From contig JAUSFD010000024.1 in the NCBI GenBank assembly GCA_030649955.1, positions 62,001 to 126,000 on the forward strand: 64,000 nucleotides of DNA, written 5' to 3'. This DNA is from Candidatus Peregrinibacteria bacterium (GTDB taxonomy: Bacteria; Patescibacteriota; Gracilibacteria; Peribacterales; Peribacteraceae). The notes under the pieces were generated by a model. That model saw only the letters and a program-made list of their open reading frames with translations, made no database searches and was not told where the DNA came from. Positions within the stretch are counted from its first letter, which is position 1; each line of letters begins with the position of its first letter. The position numbers were made by a program, and so were the translations under genes. Below, piece by piece: positions 21,712-63,987 of the stretch.

Positions 21712-21754
21712 CATGCCCGTAGAGACGTGCGATTCGCACGTCTCTACGGGCATG
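21712..21754. repeat. Perfect 43-nt palindrome, copy 1 of a shared core
   Basis: Two 21-nt arms around a central T (21733). The 25-nt core AGAGACGTGCGA-T-TCGCACGTCTCT is identical to the core at 39251-39291, while the outer arms differ but remain perfectly paired. It lies between two minus-strand genes and could terminate or insulate. Confidence 0.9.
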
Positions 21755-39250: not shown

Positions 39251-39291
39251 GGTGTGCTAGAGACGTGCGATTCGCACGTCTCTAGCACACC
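39251..39291. repeat. Perfect 41-nt palindrome, copy 2 of the shared core, overlapping the dnaG stop
   Basis: Two 20-nt arms around a central T (39271). The core equals that at 21712-21754; the outer arms are GGTGTGCT and AGCACACC. It supplies the last codons and the stop of dnaG (MVC-stop) and probably its terminator. Confidence 0.9.
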
Positions 39292-58701: not shown

Positions 58702-61209
58702 ATGCGCATCTTCCGCACCCTCAACCGCTGGCTCCGGGGAGCACTCCTCCTCGCCATCGCGGCGGCCCTGGTGCCAGTGGGCGGTGTGCGCGACGGGGCA
58801 ACGCTCTTCGAGAATGGATTGAAGGCGGCTGCGTCCCTCATCACCTCTTCGCACGCAGCGGCACCTGAGGAGGAGAAGATCGGCATCCAAGTGGGGGAGG
58901 TGTTCGAGATCATGGGAGTCGCGAGCATTCCGGAGCCGCAGTTCAGCTGGGTGCTGATTCAGGATCGCAGCTTCATTGCCGCGGGTCGCGAGCAGCACTT
59001 CCGCGTCCGCTTGAGCAGACCGGGAAAGCACACCCTCGATGCGAACATCTACTCCACCACAGCAGAGGTGCAGTTCCGCAAATCGATTCTCCTCGATGTG
59101 CAGCCCTTCCAGGACAACGGTCCTGGCTTCGCGACGGGAGGCAACCTCCCGGTGCCTGAAGACCCCTCGACCATCGTGCTCACCGACCCCTCCACACTGC
59201 GCGGCTCGATGGTGATCCCGAAAGACCGGGAGATCGTGCGCATCGTCCATGCTCGCACGGACATCGAAGAGCTCACCATCGACCTCGATACGACTGTCGA
59301 TGCGGATGAGGATGGCAATCCGGCGAACGACAACGACACTGCGAAAACCTTCATCCGCACGGAACGCACGCCGCTCTTCCTCTGGTTCACCACTCTCCCG
59401 GAACCGCGGACAATCCGCGTCACGGCGAAGCTCACCGACGGTGGCACACTCTCGCAGGAGATCCGCTTGAGCGTGGGCGTCCCCCCTAGCGAAGTCGTCA
59501 CATCCGACGACATCAGCGCACTGGAGACGCCCGATGGCACGGTGCTCTTCACTCTGCGTACAGAGAATCCCTTCCCGGAAACACCGCTCCTGTACGAGTG
59601 GTCATTCGGTGACGGCGAGTGGAGCATGCTGACTACCCCGGAGCACCGGTACGCCCAATCCGGGAGCTACACGGTGCACGTCGATGTCGTAAATCTGGGA
59701 ACGGGGCAGGTGATCTACTCCGGAGATTCTCCCATCACCGTAGCGAAGGGCGGACCACGCATTCCCGTGCCAACGCAGCCGACTCCTGGCACAGGAGGAG
59801 AGCAGCCCGAACCGAGTGGCGGCGGCGGAGGGAGCATCCTGCGGTACATCGTCATCGCCGTGATCGTCCTCCTCGTGGCGATGATCATTGGAGCCCTCAT
59901 CGCATTCCTCTGGAAGTTCTGGAGAAATAGGCGCGGCGGTTCCCTGCAGGAGACATTTGAAGCGATGGAATCGAAGATTATGGAGAAAGAGGGAAGTGGC
60001 ACTCCTGGAAATATCATTGATGTAGCGCCACCGCTGGAACTCACACGGTCTCAGCAAACAGAGGGATCCGCACCGCCAGAACCGGTACAGGAGGCGCCGT
60101 CATTCGCCCCCCCACCGCCACCTCCTTCCACCCCTGGGGTAAACATCGACGAAGCTCCTGCGTGGCTGAAGAGCGGACTCTCATCGAGCGGGCCTGCGGA
60201 AGCAGCCGTGGAACCTCCACCAACTCCTGAGCCCACACCCCCACCTCCATCCGCTCCGCCAGAATCTCCTGCTCCTCTTCCAACGGAATCGATCCCGGAG
60301 ACGCCCATGAGCTCCACCTCTGCTCCTGCAGAGGAGAGCACACTCCCTCCGTGGTTGCAGCAAGATGCGAGTCCTCCGCCATCGACACTGGAACCATCGC
60401 CACCGTCCACTCCTCCCGAACTCGCACCATCAGACGGTCCTGTCCCCTCGTGGCTGCAACCATCTGCGCCCACTGAGGAACCAGCTCCTCCTCCTTCGCC
60501 TCCAGAACCTCCACCCGCAGAAGCCCCCACAGTCCCCGAAACACCTGAACCCACTGAGCCACCTCCTCAGACTCCCACTCCCGAACCCGTCCCCACTCCG
60601 GAACCTCCACCTCCCCCTCTGCCCACTCCGGCACCGGAACCCGCTTCGAGTGCGATGGAGGAGAGCACCCCATCTGCGGAAACGTCGACAGAACCGGAGC
60701 TGCCCGCTCCCGCGCCTGAGCCATCTACTCCACCACCCACACTCCCCGCTGCAACACCTTTCGCGTCTCTCCCCGCACCGACTCCTCCACCCGCTCTCCC
60801 GCCTCCCGTCACGTTAGCACCAGCAGCGATGGTGAATCCGGGGAAGACGGAAGAGCAGCTGGCCCGCGAGCGTGAGCGCAAGCGTCGCAAGCGTCACCGC
60901 TACCAGGAGAACCTCAAGCGTCGGAAGGCAGAAGCCGTGACGAGTCCCACTGCAACCGTTCCTGCGCCAGCACAAGTGTTGGAAAAGGAGACCCCGCCCT
61001 CAGTTCCTGTTGCACCCAAACTAGCAGCACCCAAGCCTATGGTCGATATACCTCCGGTCAAACCGAAAGCTCCTGAGAAGAAACCGAAGAGCGACGACAC
61101 GACCATCGCAATCATCCGTGCTGATAGCCTGGAGCAGCAGAAACCTGTGAAGAAAACCCCGAGGAAGAAAGCGGACGAGGGCGGAAAGGGCACAAAGAAA
61201 GCTGCGTGA
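58702..61209 (+). CDS. PKD-domain membrane protein with long proline-rich cytoplasmic tail
   Basis: 835 residues. Signal/anchor (LLLAIAAALVPVGGV), an external beta-rich region with a PKD fold (about 285-355: YEWSFGDGEWSMLTTP, HRYAQSGSYTVHVDVV), a Gly/Pro linker, one membrane helix (about 378-400: YIVIAVIVLLVAMIIGALIA) and a cytoplasmic tail of about 430 residues. The tail has three copies of a PxWL motif (APAWLKS, LPPWLQQ, VPSWLQP) separated by proline/serine/glutamate-rich spacers, then a basic RERERKRRKRHRYQ segment and a lysine-rich end. It looks like an outside-to-inside connector whose tail recruits partners. Confidence 0.82.
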   Translation: MRIFRTLNRWLRGALLLAIAAALVPVGGVRDGATLFENGLKAAASLITSSHAAAPEEEKIGIQVGEVFEIMGVASIPEPQFSWVLIQDRSFIAAGREQHFRVRLSRPGKHTLDANIYSTTAEVQFRKSILLDVQPFQDNGPGFATGGNLPVPEDPSTIVLTDPSTLRGSMVIPKDREIVRIVHARTDIEELTIDLDTTVDADEDGNPANDNDTAKTFIRTERTPLFLWFTTLPEPRTIRVTAKLTDGGTLSQEIRLSVGVPPSEVVTSDDISALETPDGTVLFTLRTENPFPETPLLYEWSFGDGEWSMLTTPEHRYAQSGSYTVHVDVVNLGTGQVIYSGDSPITVAKGGPRIPVPTQPTPGTGGEQPEPSGGGGGSILRYIVIAVIVLLVAMIIGALIAFLWKFWRNRRGGSLQETFEAMESKIMEKEGSGTPGNIIDVAPPLELTRSQQTEGSAPPEPVQEAPSFAPPPPPPSTPGVNIDEAPAWLKSGLSSSGPAEAAVEPPPTPEPTPPPPSAPPESPAPLPTESIPETPMSSTSAPAEESTLPPWLQQDASPPPSTLEPSPPSTPPELAPSDGPVPSWLQPSAPTEEPAPPPSPPEPPPAEAPTVPETPEPTEPPPQTPTPEPVPTPEPPPPPLPTPAPEPASSAMEESTPSAETSTEPELPAPAPEPSTPPPTLPAATPFASLPAPTPPPALPPPVTLAPAAMVNPGKTEEQLARERERKRRKRHRYQENLKRRKAEAVTSPTATVPAPAQVLEKETPPSVPVAPKLAAPKPMVDIPPVKPKAPEKKPKSDDTTIAIIRADSLEQQKPVKKTPRKKADEGGKGTKKAA

Positions 61210-61243: not shown

Positions 61244-61355
61244 GTGGCGGGCGTAGCTCCCACCTTCGCCCTTTTCAAACATCGTTCGAGGCTGATGCAG
61301 TTGTTCCCTCCTCTGTGCAAGGCTACGGTGGGCGAGCAGTTGGACAAGTCTGCTT
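61244..61355 (+). pseudogene. tRNA-His fragment 1 with a 77-nt palindromic insert
   Basis: GTGGCGGGCGTAGCTC (61244-61259) is identical to the intact tRNA-His start. Then a 77-nt insert (61260-61336) with CCACCTTCGCC and GGCTACGGTGGGCGAG arms, then AGTTGG and an eroded stretch (ACAAGTCTG). The insert lies in the D arm. Beyond 61355 similarity is lost. Confidence 0.8.
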
Positions 61356-61372
61356 TCATTCCTCGTTTTCTC

Positions 61373-61462
61373 GTGGCGGGCGTAGCTCAGTTGGGCCCGA
61401 AGGGCGCCCTTCGGGCTTAGAGCGTCTGGGGCCGAAGGCCGGTCTTAGACCCTCCAGAAGGT
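61373..61462 (+). pseudogene. tRNA-His fragment 2 with palindromes in the D and anticodon loops
   Basis: GTGGCGGGCGTAGCTCAGTT-GG (61373-61394) is identical to the intact gene. A perfect 22-nt palindrome GCCCGAAGGGC/GCCCTTCGGGC (61395-61416) sits in the D loop. TTAGAGCGTCTGG follows; the anticodon loop is replaced by 24 nt (61430-61453) with GGCCGAAGGCC and GGTCTTAGACC; then CCAGAAGGT, after which the T arm and acceptor 3' strand are missing. Confidence 0.85.
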
Positions 61463-61481
61463 AGTGAGGTACTCTTGAAAT

Positions 61482-61766
61482 ATGGCATTCGTATACATGC
61501 TCTGGAGCGAGAAAGATAACGGCTGGTACATCGGAAAGACGAAACGCTTGTTCTATGAGAGATTTTTAGAACATACTGCCGGAAAGGTCAGGTCAACGAA
61601 ATTCCGTCGACCATTGCTCCTCGCATACATTGAGGAGATACTTGATGGTAATGAGCAGAAACGAGAGCACTTTCTGAAGCATCCAAGTGGATACACTCAG
61701 AAACTTCGAATCACAGAGCTCTTGATTATGAGAAAAAGCGAATGGCCGATTAGGGGTCCTGTCTAA
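61482..61766 (+). CDS. GIY-YIG nuclease, single domain, between tRNA-His fragments and intact tRNA-His
   Basis: 94 residues, the full length of the small UPF0213/YhbQ-like group. FVYMLWSEKDNGWYIGKT supplies the GIY-YIG-type motif pair; the following RFLEHTAGKVRSTKFRRPLL holds the conserved arginine, and NEQKREHFLK the catalytic-glutamate helix region. Such domains cut DNA and occur in homing and mobile elements as well as repair. The gene is A+T-richer than its surroundings and starts 20 nt after fragment 2. Its position is best explained as cargo of a small element at the tRNA-His gene. Confidence 0.88.
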   Translation: MAFVYMLWSEKDNGWYIGKTKRLFYERFLEHTAGKVRSTKFRRPLLLAYIEEILDGNEQKREHFLKHPSGYTQKLRITELLIMRKSEWPIRGPV

Positions 61767-61768
61767 GA

Positions 61769-61784
61769 AAAGAACATGTTCTTT
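61769..61784. terminator. Palindrome after the GIY-YIG gene
   Basis: AAAGAACATGTTCTTT, a perfect 16-nt palindrome three bases after the stop codon. Possibly a weak terminator or a protein-binding site at the element's edge. Confidence 0.45.
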
Positions 61785-61803
61785 CTATCTTCGCATCTAC
61801 CCT

Positions 61804-61809
61804 ATAATA
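61804..61809 (+). promoter_or_regulatory. -10 of intact tRNA-His
   Basis: Perfect TATAAT; +1 near 61816, seven bases before the tRNA 5' end. A weak TTCTTT lies upstream. The intact tRNA has its own promoter, separate from that of fragment 1. Confidence 0.6.
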
Positions 61810-61822
61810 TTGGCTCATCGTG

Positions 61823-61899
61823 GCGGGCGTAGCTCAGTTGGTTAGAGCGTCTGGCTGTGGCCCAGAAGGTCGTGGGTTCAATTCCCATCGCTCGCCCCA
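61823..61899 (+). tRNA. tRNA-His (GTG)
   Basis: 77 nt with an encoded G-1 (61823) facing C73, acceptor GCGGGCG/CGCTCGC, D arm GCTC-AGTTGGTTA-GAGC, anticodon arm TCTGG-CTGTGGC-CCAGA (GTG), T arm GTGGG-TTCAATT-CCCAT and encoded CCA. The last base is directly before the stop codon of the convergent gene at 61900. hisS lies about 740 nt downstream. Confidence 0.96.
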
Positions 61900-62424
61900 C
61901 TACTCTCCACTCTGCGGCACCAACTGCGGGAGGAGTATTTTCTCGACGTCCGCGAGGACTTTCTGATCCACGGAAGTCGTGGTGAGGAAGATCGCGCTCT
62001 CCTCATTCTGAATGCGACACCAGTGCACGACTTTGTACGTTCGCACGAGGTCTGCATAGCGGTAGAAGGTCGTCTTCGAGGGGCCGATGGAGAGCGGTAT
62101 CACATCCTCTGCCCTTCGCTTCCCGGGACACTCTTCCTTGGGGCCCTTCGCGATAGTGACGGCATCACCCAGAAGGTCATTGGCACTCCGGGCAGTGACT
62201 TCCCCATTCACCAAACCGATGGTGATCGACTCGTCCGAAACTTCTTTGACCCCCCAGCCATCGGGGAGCATCACCGTCCAGTTCAAGACTGCTCCACTCG
62301 CGGTGCGCGCAAGATTCCCCTCATCAGCCTGGTTTCCCTTCCACGCATCGAAGAGCAACCAGAGGAGTCCCAGGAGGAGTGCGAGCAGAAGGAGGAGCCG
62401 GATGCGTCGTGAGCCCGATGTCAT
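61900..62424 (-). CDS. Small membrane-anchored protein, unknown function
   Basis: 174 residues from the ATG at 62424 (MTSGSRRIRLLLLLALLLGLLWLLF): a single N-terminal helix with a basic start, then an external domain (VLNWTVMLPDGWGVKEVSDE, FYRYADLVRTYKVVHWC) with a beta-rich pattern seen in small PsbP-like or Mog1-like domains, though I do not assign it. Its stop codon touches the tRNA-His CCA. A longer frame to 62577 would run into the palindrome and is not supported. Confidence 0.72.
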   Translation of the reverse strand: MTSGSRRIRLLLLLALLLGLLWLLFDAWKGNQADEGNLARTASGAVLNWTVMLPDGWGVKEVSDESITIGLVNGEVTARSANDLLGDAVTIAKGPKEECPGKRRAEDVIPLSIGPSKTTFYRYADLVRTYKVVHWCRIQNEESAIFLTTTSVDQKVLADVEKILLPQLVPQSGE

Positions 62425-62576
62425 CGCACTCACAGTGCACGGGAAGCGACGGACAGGCAAGGATCCTTCCCCTTCCCAATGGAGAGAACAGATGGTAGGA
62501 TCGGTGCTTGATAGCGTGCCATCGAGATGGTACGAACCCTCTTTCCTGTATTTCCGAGCCACAATTCCGCCCGCCA

Positions 62577-62603
62577 ACCCCGCTCTGCAAGGCTACGCGG
62601 GGT
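62577..62603. repeat. Palindromic element upstream of hisS
   Basis: ACCCCGC...GCGGGGT with the inner text TCTGCAAGGCTAC. GTGCAAGGCTACG occurs in the insert of tRNA-His fragment 1 (61315-61327), so both belong to one element family. Confidence 0.7.
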
Positions 62604-62634: not shown

Positions 62635-63987
62635 ATGTCACAAACTGAATTCCGAACACCGAAGGGCACGCACGACGTCCTCCCAGAGGATCACCAGTAC
62701 ATGACGTACATCAAGAAAGCCGTGCGTCACCGCTGCCGCCAGGCAGGCTACAAGCGCATCGATACTCCGATGTTCGAGCATCGCGCGATCTTCGAACGCG
62801 GGATCGGTGCGCACACGGACATCGTGGAGAAGGAGCTCTTCCTCGTCTCGGGGAGCAAGCGTGAGGGGGGAGAAGATGCGGCACCGGTCTTCGCGTTGCG
62901 ACCCGAATTCACCGCAGGCATCTGCCGCTCGTATATCGAGCATGGGATGCAGCAACTGCCGCAACCTGTCGAGCTCTACGCCATCGGACAGTGCTTCCGA
63001 CACGACCGTCCCCAGAAGGGGCGCTACCGGCAGTTCCACCAGTTCGACCTGGAAGTGATCGGCCTCCGGGACCCCAGCCTGGATGCGCAGCTGATCCACG
63101 TGCTCAAGAACATCCTCTCCGATATCAAGATCTTCAGTCGCCTGACGCTGCAAATCAACAACATCGGTCAGCCGGAGAGCCGGAAGGCATTTGCAGATGC
63201 GCTGAAGGACTACTTCATTGGGAAGGAGCGGCACCTGCCGGAGATCGACCGTAACCGCCTGGAGAGTAACCCTATGCGTCTCCTCGACTCGAAGGAGGAG
63301 GACACGCAGATCCTCGTGAAGAATGCGCCTAAGCTCTCGCAGTTCGTCTCCGAGGAGAGCAAGCAGTACCACGAGACGGTTCTCGAGTATCTCACCGCCC
63401 TCGGCGTGCCTTACATGGAGAATGCATCGCTGGTGCGTGGTCTCGATTACTACACGCAGACGGTCTTCGAGTTCTGGGACCAATCGACCGGGGCACAGAA
63501 CGCGGTGGGTGGTGGTGGCCGCTACGACGGGTTGATCGAGCTCCTCGGCGGCAAGCCTACCCCCGGTGTGGGCTTCGCAGGCGGCCTCGAGCGCATGATC
63601 TGGCACATGAAGGAAGCCGGAGTGACAGTGCCGAATAAGGATCAAGTGGATGTCTTCGTGGCACAACTTGGCCCCGAAGCGAAGAAGCAGTGCTTAACCC
63701 TCGTGTCGGAACTCCGCGAGAAAGGGGTGCACACTGTCGGAGCCCTGGGTGAAGCCAGTCTGAAGAGCCAGATGCGCCTCGCGGATAAATTCCAATCCCG
63801 CTACACGCTCCTCCTCGGGAAGATGGAGGTGAAGCACTCGACGATTATTCTGCGCGACATGCAGGCGGGGAAGCAGAAGGAGATGAAGCTCGCTGACGTC
63901 ATTCCCGAAGTGATCAAGCTCCTCGGGAAAGAGAACCTCGATACTTACGTGCTGAGGGATCATATTGGGGACGTGGACGAGGATTAG
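62635..63987 (+). CDS. hisS: Histidyl-tRNA synthetase
   Basis: 450 residues from the ATG at 62635. Class II motif 1 region (HRAIFERGIGAHTDIVEKEL), motif 2 (FRHDRPQKGRYRQFHQFDLE), the HisRS-specific LVRGLDYYTQTVFEF and GGGGRYDGLIELLGG, and motif 3 (GVGFAGGLERM), followed by the C-terminal anticodon-binding domain. It charges tRNA-His, whose intact gene lies upstream in this window; proximity to its own tRNA is unusual. The upstream in-frame extension to 62527 crosses a palindrome and is rejected. Confidence 0.97.
   Translation: MSQTEFRTPKGTHDVLPEDHQYMTYIKKAVRHRCRQAGYKRIDTPMFEHRAIFERGIGAHTDIVEKELFLVSGSKREGGEDAAPVFALRPEFTAGICRSYIEHGMQQLPQPVELYAIGQCFRHDRPQKGRYRQFHQFDLEVIGLRDPSLDAQLIHVLKNILSDIKIFSRLTLQINNIGQPESRKAFADALKDYFIGKERHLPEIDRNRLESNPMRLLDSKEEDTQILVKNAPKLSQFVSEESKQYHETVLEYLTALGVPYMENASLVRGLDYYTQTVFEFWDQSTGAQNAVGGGGRYDGLIELLGGKPTPGVGFAGGLERMIWHMKEAGVTVPNKDQVDVFVAQLGPEAKKQCLTLVSELREKGVHTVGALGEASLKSQMRLADKFQSRYTLLLGKMEVKHSTIILRDMQAGKQKEMKLADVIPEVIKLLGKENLDTYVLRDHIGDVDED

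Follow-up and report, generated by a model that had tools for sequence, protein, structure and literature searches.

In T-even phages, SegB cleaves the DNA of tRNA genes and promotes segmental amplification by recombination (PMC13096335, PMC2988022). In fungal mitochondria, mobile open reading frames (ORFs) that encode an endonuclease, of the LAGLIDADG type or, in Glomus atp9, of the GIY-YIG type, insert along with a duplicated portion of the host gene (PMC3630166); in the Glomus and Allomyces atp6-type ORFs the duplicate replaces the native part, whose remnant remains beyond the ORF (PMC3630166). SegB and the mitochondrial ORFs together provide precedents for each step of the mechanism proposed below. 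Our subject is a tRNA-His locus in a 64,000-nucleotide stretch of the ultra-small Candidatus Peregrinibacteria bacterium (assembly GCA_030649955.1, contig JAUSFD010000024.1, positions 62,001–126,000 of the forward strand; hereafter the window, in whose coordinates all positions are given), in which a small GIY-YIG nuclease gene has a broken tRNA-His copy before it and an intact one after it. With somewhat more confidence than doubt, we assign the segment 61376–61899 to a family of mobile nuclease cassettes, minimal in size, whose members reside in tRNA genes in the manner of homing endonucleases.

The tRNA-His locus and its nuclease

The order broken tRNA-His, GIY-YIG gene, intact tRNA-His is confirmed, and all tRNA-His copies and the nuclease gene between the PKD-protein gene on the left and hisS on the right are on one strand. 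tRNAs were called with ARAGORN and Rfam, and protein domains with Pfam PF01541 at a cut-off of 22.6 bits. The intact tRNA-His(GTG) (61823–61899, +) is found by ARAGORN and scores 70 bits against the Rfam tRNA model. The broken copy, fragment 2 (61376–61462, +), comprises tRNA-His bases 1–48 plus inserts, its T-arm and 3′ acceptor strand being missing. Bases 1–19 (61376–61394) and 20–32 (61417–61429) are exact and are separated in the D-loop by a perfect palindrome of 22 nt (61395–61416, +; GCCCGAAGGGCGCCCTTCGGGC), one of just four palindromes with arms of at least 9 in the 64 kb. The anticodon loop is replaced by a double hairpin of 24 nt (61430–61453, +), after which bases 40–48 follow at 61454–61462 and the similarity stops. 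The nuclease gene (61482–61766, +) is separated from the intact tRNA-His by a gap of 56 bp. It is the sole ORF between the tRNA-His copies, where no integrase was found, and no group I intron or other known RNA in the interval was matched by Rfam at E ≤ 1.

Further upstream lies fragment 1 (61247–61259, +), an exact copy of tRNA-His bases 1–13, followed by a hairpin-rich sequence, here called R5 (61260–61339, +; CCACCTTCGCCC … AAGGCTACGGTGGGCGAGCAG). Exact tRNA-His self copies of 13 and 19 nt are far above chance. An earlier note on this DNA had described two tRNA-His 5′ fragments ahead of a 94-residue GIY-YIG gene with a complete tRNA-His downstream, and all of these are real, although the fragments start at 61247 and 61376; the 61244 given for the first counts G-1 plus two leader bases. 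Fragment 2 had been read as a plain 5′ match up to the variable loop. It does end at base 48, but the two hairpin inserts were overlooked. The TATAAT of the proposed new promoter is present in the 56-bp gap (61803–61808, +), but scanning the interval for a sigma-70 promoter by both hexamers gave none, no −35 box being found, so that the hexamer as a −10 box ahead of the intact tRNA-His is only suggestive.

The encoded protein, of 94 residues and a single domain, carries the marks of its superfamily: it scores 37.2 bits against PF01541 and has the GIY and YIG motifs and the catalytic Y, R and E. Across the proteins of 40 relatives Y5, Y16, G18, R27, H31 and E62 are invariant, and the active site of the window protein is intact. 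An AlphaFold2 model (predicted local distance difference test score 84) adopts the GIY-YIG fold, with the domain spanning residues 2–69 and a helix and disordered tail making up the rest. Its top matches in the PDB are UPF0213 (1zg2, E 4e-3), then Slx1 and the I-TevI domain 1ln0, with E-values that are modest, as expected for a 94-residue domain. The sequence itself is divergent, the nearest relative (L138; L-numbers denote fetched loci and G-numbers genomes of relatives) being at 44%. A sequence search of solved structures returned no meaningful close relative, tblastn no phage relative, and NCBIfam nothing beyond sub-cut-off similarity to intron endonucleases.

Recurrence at tRNA genes

PF01541 has nine matches in the genome of the window. 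One, an open frame of 822 residues, is taken to be UvrC; of the other eight, all small genes, six have a tRNA no more than 400 bp away (P about 2e-8), these own-genome statistics resting on the searched loci. For comparison, about 110 GIY loci were collected from 59 relatives, metagenome-derived and related at genus level rather than as strains; loci were picked by domain score without regard to tRNA proximity. Among the 98 with at least 400 bp on either side, a tRNA is found within 400 bp in 50 (4.5 expected), and 47 of these 50 GIY genes are co-oriented with it. In other families, covered by a phylum-wide sample, a tRNA is located within 500 bp at 6 of 28 top-scoring loci, each time in the orientation of the GIY gene. 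GIY genes away from tRNAs are not generally rRNA-associated: apart from two transfer-messenger RNA (tmRNA) cases and one 23S case, no Rfam RNA lies near them. In the tmRNA cases (L151, L182) the tmRNA is directly upstream of the GIY gene on the same strand, with a TTCGACTCG motif flush with the CCA between the two; in the 23S case (L145:1–2571) the GIY-YIG gene is within the 23S rRNA gene of relative G002.

On the GIY tree a tRNA-associated clade stands apart from a mostly tRNA-free remainder, and the window gene falls in the 57-row tRNA-associated set (Shimodaira–Hasegawa-like approximate likelihood ratio test 96). tRNA isotypes cluster on the tree, with 34 changes against a shuffled mean of 44.4 and none of 200 shuffles as low, and flanking genes are not shared in most sister groups of one isotype. 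This pattern would suit homing that is specific to an isotype, or nuclease genes that move along with the tRNA.

Fifteen loci have the GIY gene flanked by an intact and a broken copy of the same tRNA. Two arrangements occur among the GIY loci. In class B the intact copy comes first and 3′-end copies lie downstream of the GIY gene (L003, L004, L006, L048, L142, L158, L162); in class C the intact copy comes last and 5′-end copies lie upstream (the window, L047, L061, L065, L109, L112, L113, L120, L126). L047 retains both halves of a broken tRNA-Gly, with bases 1–56 before the GIY gene and 60–76 beyond the intact copy, and the better-preserved 5′ copies in general end at about bases 56–62, in the T-loop. 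Often the GIY frame runs into the downstream tRNA copy and ends there (L047, L109, L113, L120, L126, L138, L176), the copy supplying the stop codon to C-termini such as SGVAQW, WGVAKW, AGIV and SGCGAVG. Classes B and C interleave on the tree (L109 and L172 at tRNA-Pro(GGG), L120 and L138 at tRNA-Gln(TTG)), so the simplest unit is tRNA copy, GIY gene, tRNA copy, with either copy disabled.

Disabled copies frequently carry palindromes. Counting perfect palindromes with arms of at least 7, 17 of 21 disabled segments contain one, compared with 92 of 2646 background segments of 65 nt (3.5%) and none of 16 intact tRNAs; segments sharing a locus are not independent, but a palindrome-bearing segment is present in most of the 15 loci. 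The background density of 3.5% rules out palindromes as a general feature of these genomes. The 20-mer CCTGCCTGCCGGCAGGCAGG is found within copies of tRNA-Phe (T-loop), tRNA-Ile (anticodon loop) and tRNA-Leu in different genera. It occurs in 18 of 59 genomes, the window genome not among them, and different palindromes are present at other loci, so that no single palindrome is common to the whole family. At L194, L195, L196, L200, L186 and L077, CCTGCCTGCCGGCAGGCAGG is in broken tRNA copies beside an intact tRNA, with no GIY gene found nearby. Two long palindromes with the common core AGAGACGTGCGATTCGCACGTCTCT lie elsewhere in the window (21712–21754 and 39251–39291).

The tRNA-His site itself is empty in relatives. 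The left syntenic marker is the gene for a PKD-domain membrane protein (58702–61209, +) and the right is hisS, for histidyl-tRNA synthetase (62638–63987, +; an ATG-initiated ORF may start at 62527). The order PKD gene, tRNA-His, hisS is kept in G011, G017, G020, G027 and G018, none of which has a GIY gene at the locus, and among 30 hisS loci the window alone has one. These genus-level relatives therefore supply the empty alleles to the occupied one, a pairing by which free-standing homing endonucleases are recognised. G017 has one plain tRNA-His only, G011 a degenerate tandem copy downstream, and G020 a 1–13 copy with hairpin. Because the G020 copy occurs without GIY, fragments 1 and 2 represent different events, fragment 1 being independent of GIY. 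Between tRNA-His and hisS in the window is a 225-codon ORF (61900–62577, −) without a Pfam match. The hisS frames of the class-level relatives G044, G046, G048, G055 and G057 contain 6–30 TGA codons in frame, which would fit a genetic code that reads TGA as sense in those relatives.

Copies of the first 12 or 13 bases are widespread. They are found about 90–135 nt ahead of the intact tRNA that they copy, with a hairpin of the CCACCTTCGC...GGTGGGCGAGCAG type after them and mostly no GIY gene, in the window's own genome (L013, L015, L023, L027, L032, L035, L036, L037, L040) and at L104, L121, L133, L137 and L190; the R5 sequence type follows 1–13 copies at Lys, Gly, Thr, Gln, Arg, Pro, Met and His tRNAs. 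Around the 34 tRNAs of the own genome, 5′ copies are upstream in 13 cases and downstream in none, 3′ copies are downstream in 7 and upstream in none, and there are no opposite-strand self copies. Most self copies start 0–2 nt from mature base 1 or finish 0–1 nt from the CCA. Tandem duplication with simple decay is disfavoured as the origin of the 1–13 copies, which are exact over 12–13 nt and mostly stop 0–2 nt from base 1.

At the other end of the tRNA, many loci with the tRNA upstream have a motif of about 115 nt with three hairpins that begins directly after the CCA and is followed, in many loci 9–150 nt further on, by the GIY gene (L055, L125, L153, L054, L056, L162, L169, L110, L168, L165; covariance-model matches L238–L267). 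Compensatory changes occur in 16 of its 30 predicted pairs, and 18 of 26 model matches examined start at the base following the CCA, GIY present or absent, which poses the question whether the mature tRNA is recognised by insertion or by RNA processing. The motif has no Rfam match in the loci scanned and is absent after the window tRNA-His. It may be a non-autonomous partner of the nuclease cassettes.

A proposed origin of the cassettes

We propose as the basic unit a lone GIY-YIG gene of 80–95 residues, flanked on each side by a copy of the tRNA gene of its host, both copies on the same strand; one of them is functional, and truncation and short palindromes in the loops disable the other. The nuclease would cut an unoccupied tRNA gene of its isotype near the T-loop, and repair would install the GIY gene with a second, partial or whole, tRNA copy, so that a functional tRNA would always be rebuilt; the redundant copy would later decay or be knocked out by mobile palindromes. 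The cassette would then act like a free-standing homing endonuclease gene that itself provides for mending the host gene. In the window, the broken copy is upstream and the downstream tRNA-His would be the rebuilt one, fragment 1 probably recording an older, unrelated hairpin event.

Several observations weigh against this scheme. We infer cleavage, the repair route and mobility from the arrangement of the loci; the window protein lacks a separate DNA-binding module, with UPF0213 as its best structural match; and it is an atypical member on a long branch of the tree. The locus is atypical too, its broken copy stopping at base 48 rather than in the T-loop and its GIY gene being set off from the tRNA by the 56-bp gap. 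The isotype clustering could be partly vertical inheritance, gene order being little conserved at such distance. Finally, 12 of the 28 non-GIY tRNAs of the own genome have exact end self copies, and palindrome-bearing broken copies exist without GIY (L077, L194–L196, L200), so duplication needs no present-day GIY gene. These last two points, along with L104, where a 1–13 copy precedes the syntenic tRNA-His and GIY is absent, are what one would see if GIY-independent duplication and hairpin repeats acted at tRNAs and GIY genes gathered as passengers in the unselected space between copies. Such a passive dump should collect other genes as well, and it leaves the separate tRNA-associated clade, the 47/50 strand bias, the isotype clustering and the GIY frames that end within a tRNA copy unaccounted for; we consider it rather unlikely. 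That the broken copy is instead a working part, a hairpin-extended tRNA-like leader that controls how the GIY mRNA is translated or processed, or a mark against self-cutting, seems to us improbable. The palindromes in a tRNA loop of 17 of the 21 broken copies would fit, as would the window copy, which folds more stably than shuffles (z −3.1 and z −2.3 in two computations), and repressive hairpins are known upstream of T4 homing endonucleases including SegB (PMC2988022); the palindromes, however, are not alike in sequence and may sit in the D-loop, the anticodon loop or the T-loop, the broken copy may be before or after the GIY gene, and similar copies occur without GIY. Descent from an integrase-borne island or a tRNA group I intron is very improbable: GIY-YIG enzymes are known from group I introns, but the tRNA here is uninterrupted, neither integrase nor intron is found in the interval, and an architecture of 300–600 bp recurs with different tRNAs in many genera, which makes decay of large islands unlikely.

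The cassette scheme also has a wider version, which we put forward only tentatively: the loci could be minimal mobile elements of the candidate phyla radiation (CPR) that form a novel class, colonising tRNA genes with boundaries exactly at the mature ends, base 1 or CCA. The lone GIY-YIG protein would be their sole protein, and the CCA motif, the 1–13 hairpin elements and the loop palindromes would be non-autonomous versions that travel with it, possibly by way of a step in which the processed tRNA and not its gene is seen.

The interpretation in the earlier note is partly supported, and what the loci show reaches further, and is odder, than it pictured. The association of GIY genes with tRNA fragments that it anticipated is strong in the group, and the empty tRNA-His loci it looked for exist. 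Its model of an orphaned 5′ half with an intact gene rebuilt beyond describes the class C relatives, but at other loci the intact tRNA precedes the GIY gene, with a broken copy or 3′ fragments behind the gene. The junction it placed in the anticodon/variable region is not borne out by better-preserved relatives, in which it lies in the T-loop (bases 56–62), nor are two rounds of GIY insertion borne out, since 1–13-plus-hairpin copies precede many tRNAs without GIY, the tRNA-His of G020 included. GIY-free relatives with the same fragments, which it regarded as telling against its view, were found for fragment 1 only.

Comparison with known systems

A literature search outside which most subscription journals lay found no description of the GIY–tRNA cassette combination in CPR bacteria, and the evidence suggests that very small mobile elements of a family not described so far live in tRNA genes. 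If the cassette scheme is true, these would be the smallest known class of selfish nuclease cassettes, residing in essential single-copy tRNA genes of streamlined CPR genomes and each restoring the gene that it breaks. The unexplained expansion of small GIY-YIG genes in CPR would gain a likely role and many tRNA fragments an explanation, and every isotype would offer a testable nuclease–target pair.

Like T4 SegB and other free-standing homing endonucleases, the window gene is a free-standing GIY-YIG gene lodged among tRNA genes (PMC2988022, PMC13096335). Unlike the phage system, it is cellular, encodes a bare 94-residue catalytic domain without the DNA-binding region, and is inserted within a single tRNA gene with a duplicate of that tRNA, cleavage being presumed. 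We do not label it a Seg-type homing endonuclease: it has no such region, and cleavage is presumed only. In the Glomus and Allomyces mobile ORFs, too, a nuclease gene is accompanied by a duplicated portion of the host gene that takes the place of the native one; those insert at the 3′ end of protein genes and come from another species, whereas here tRNA genes are involved and the copies are identical to the local tRNA and may be 5′, 3′ or whole. Complete and partial tRNA copies also flank tRNA-integrated islands and prophages as attL and attR (PMC9897764), and a partial copy at the far end of the insert is found here as well, 5′ in the window and 3′ in L003, L004, L006 and L142. The islands, however, are 9–23 kb in the cited examples and integrase-driven (PMC9897764), compared with about 300–600 bp and no integrase here, and for lack of an integrase we withhold that label too. 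The palindromes resemble mitochondrial RHE, double-hairpin elements and yeast GC clusters in being very short, GC-rich and present at many sites (PMC2800124), but they are bacterial and concentrated in the loops of redundant tRNA copies. Lastly, as with the insertion sequences of CPR rRNA, homing-type nucleases would here be spreading among CPR RNA genes; those are introns and insertions in rRNA, in a paper in which tRNA genes have 0 occurrences, while here the GIY-YIG genes are concentrated at tRNAs.
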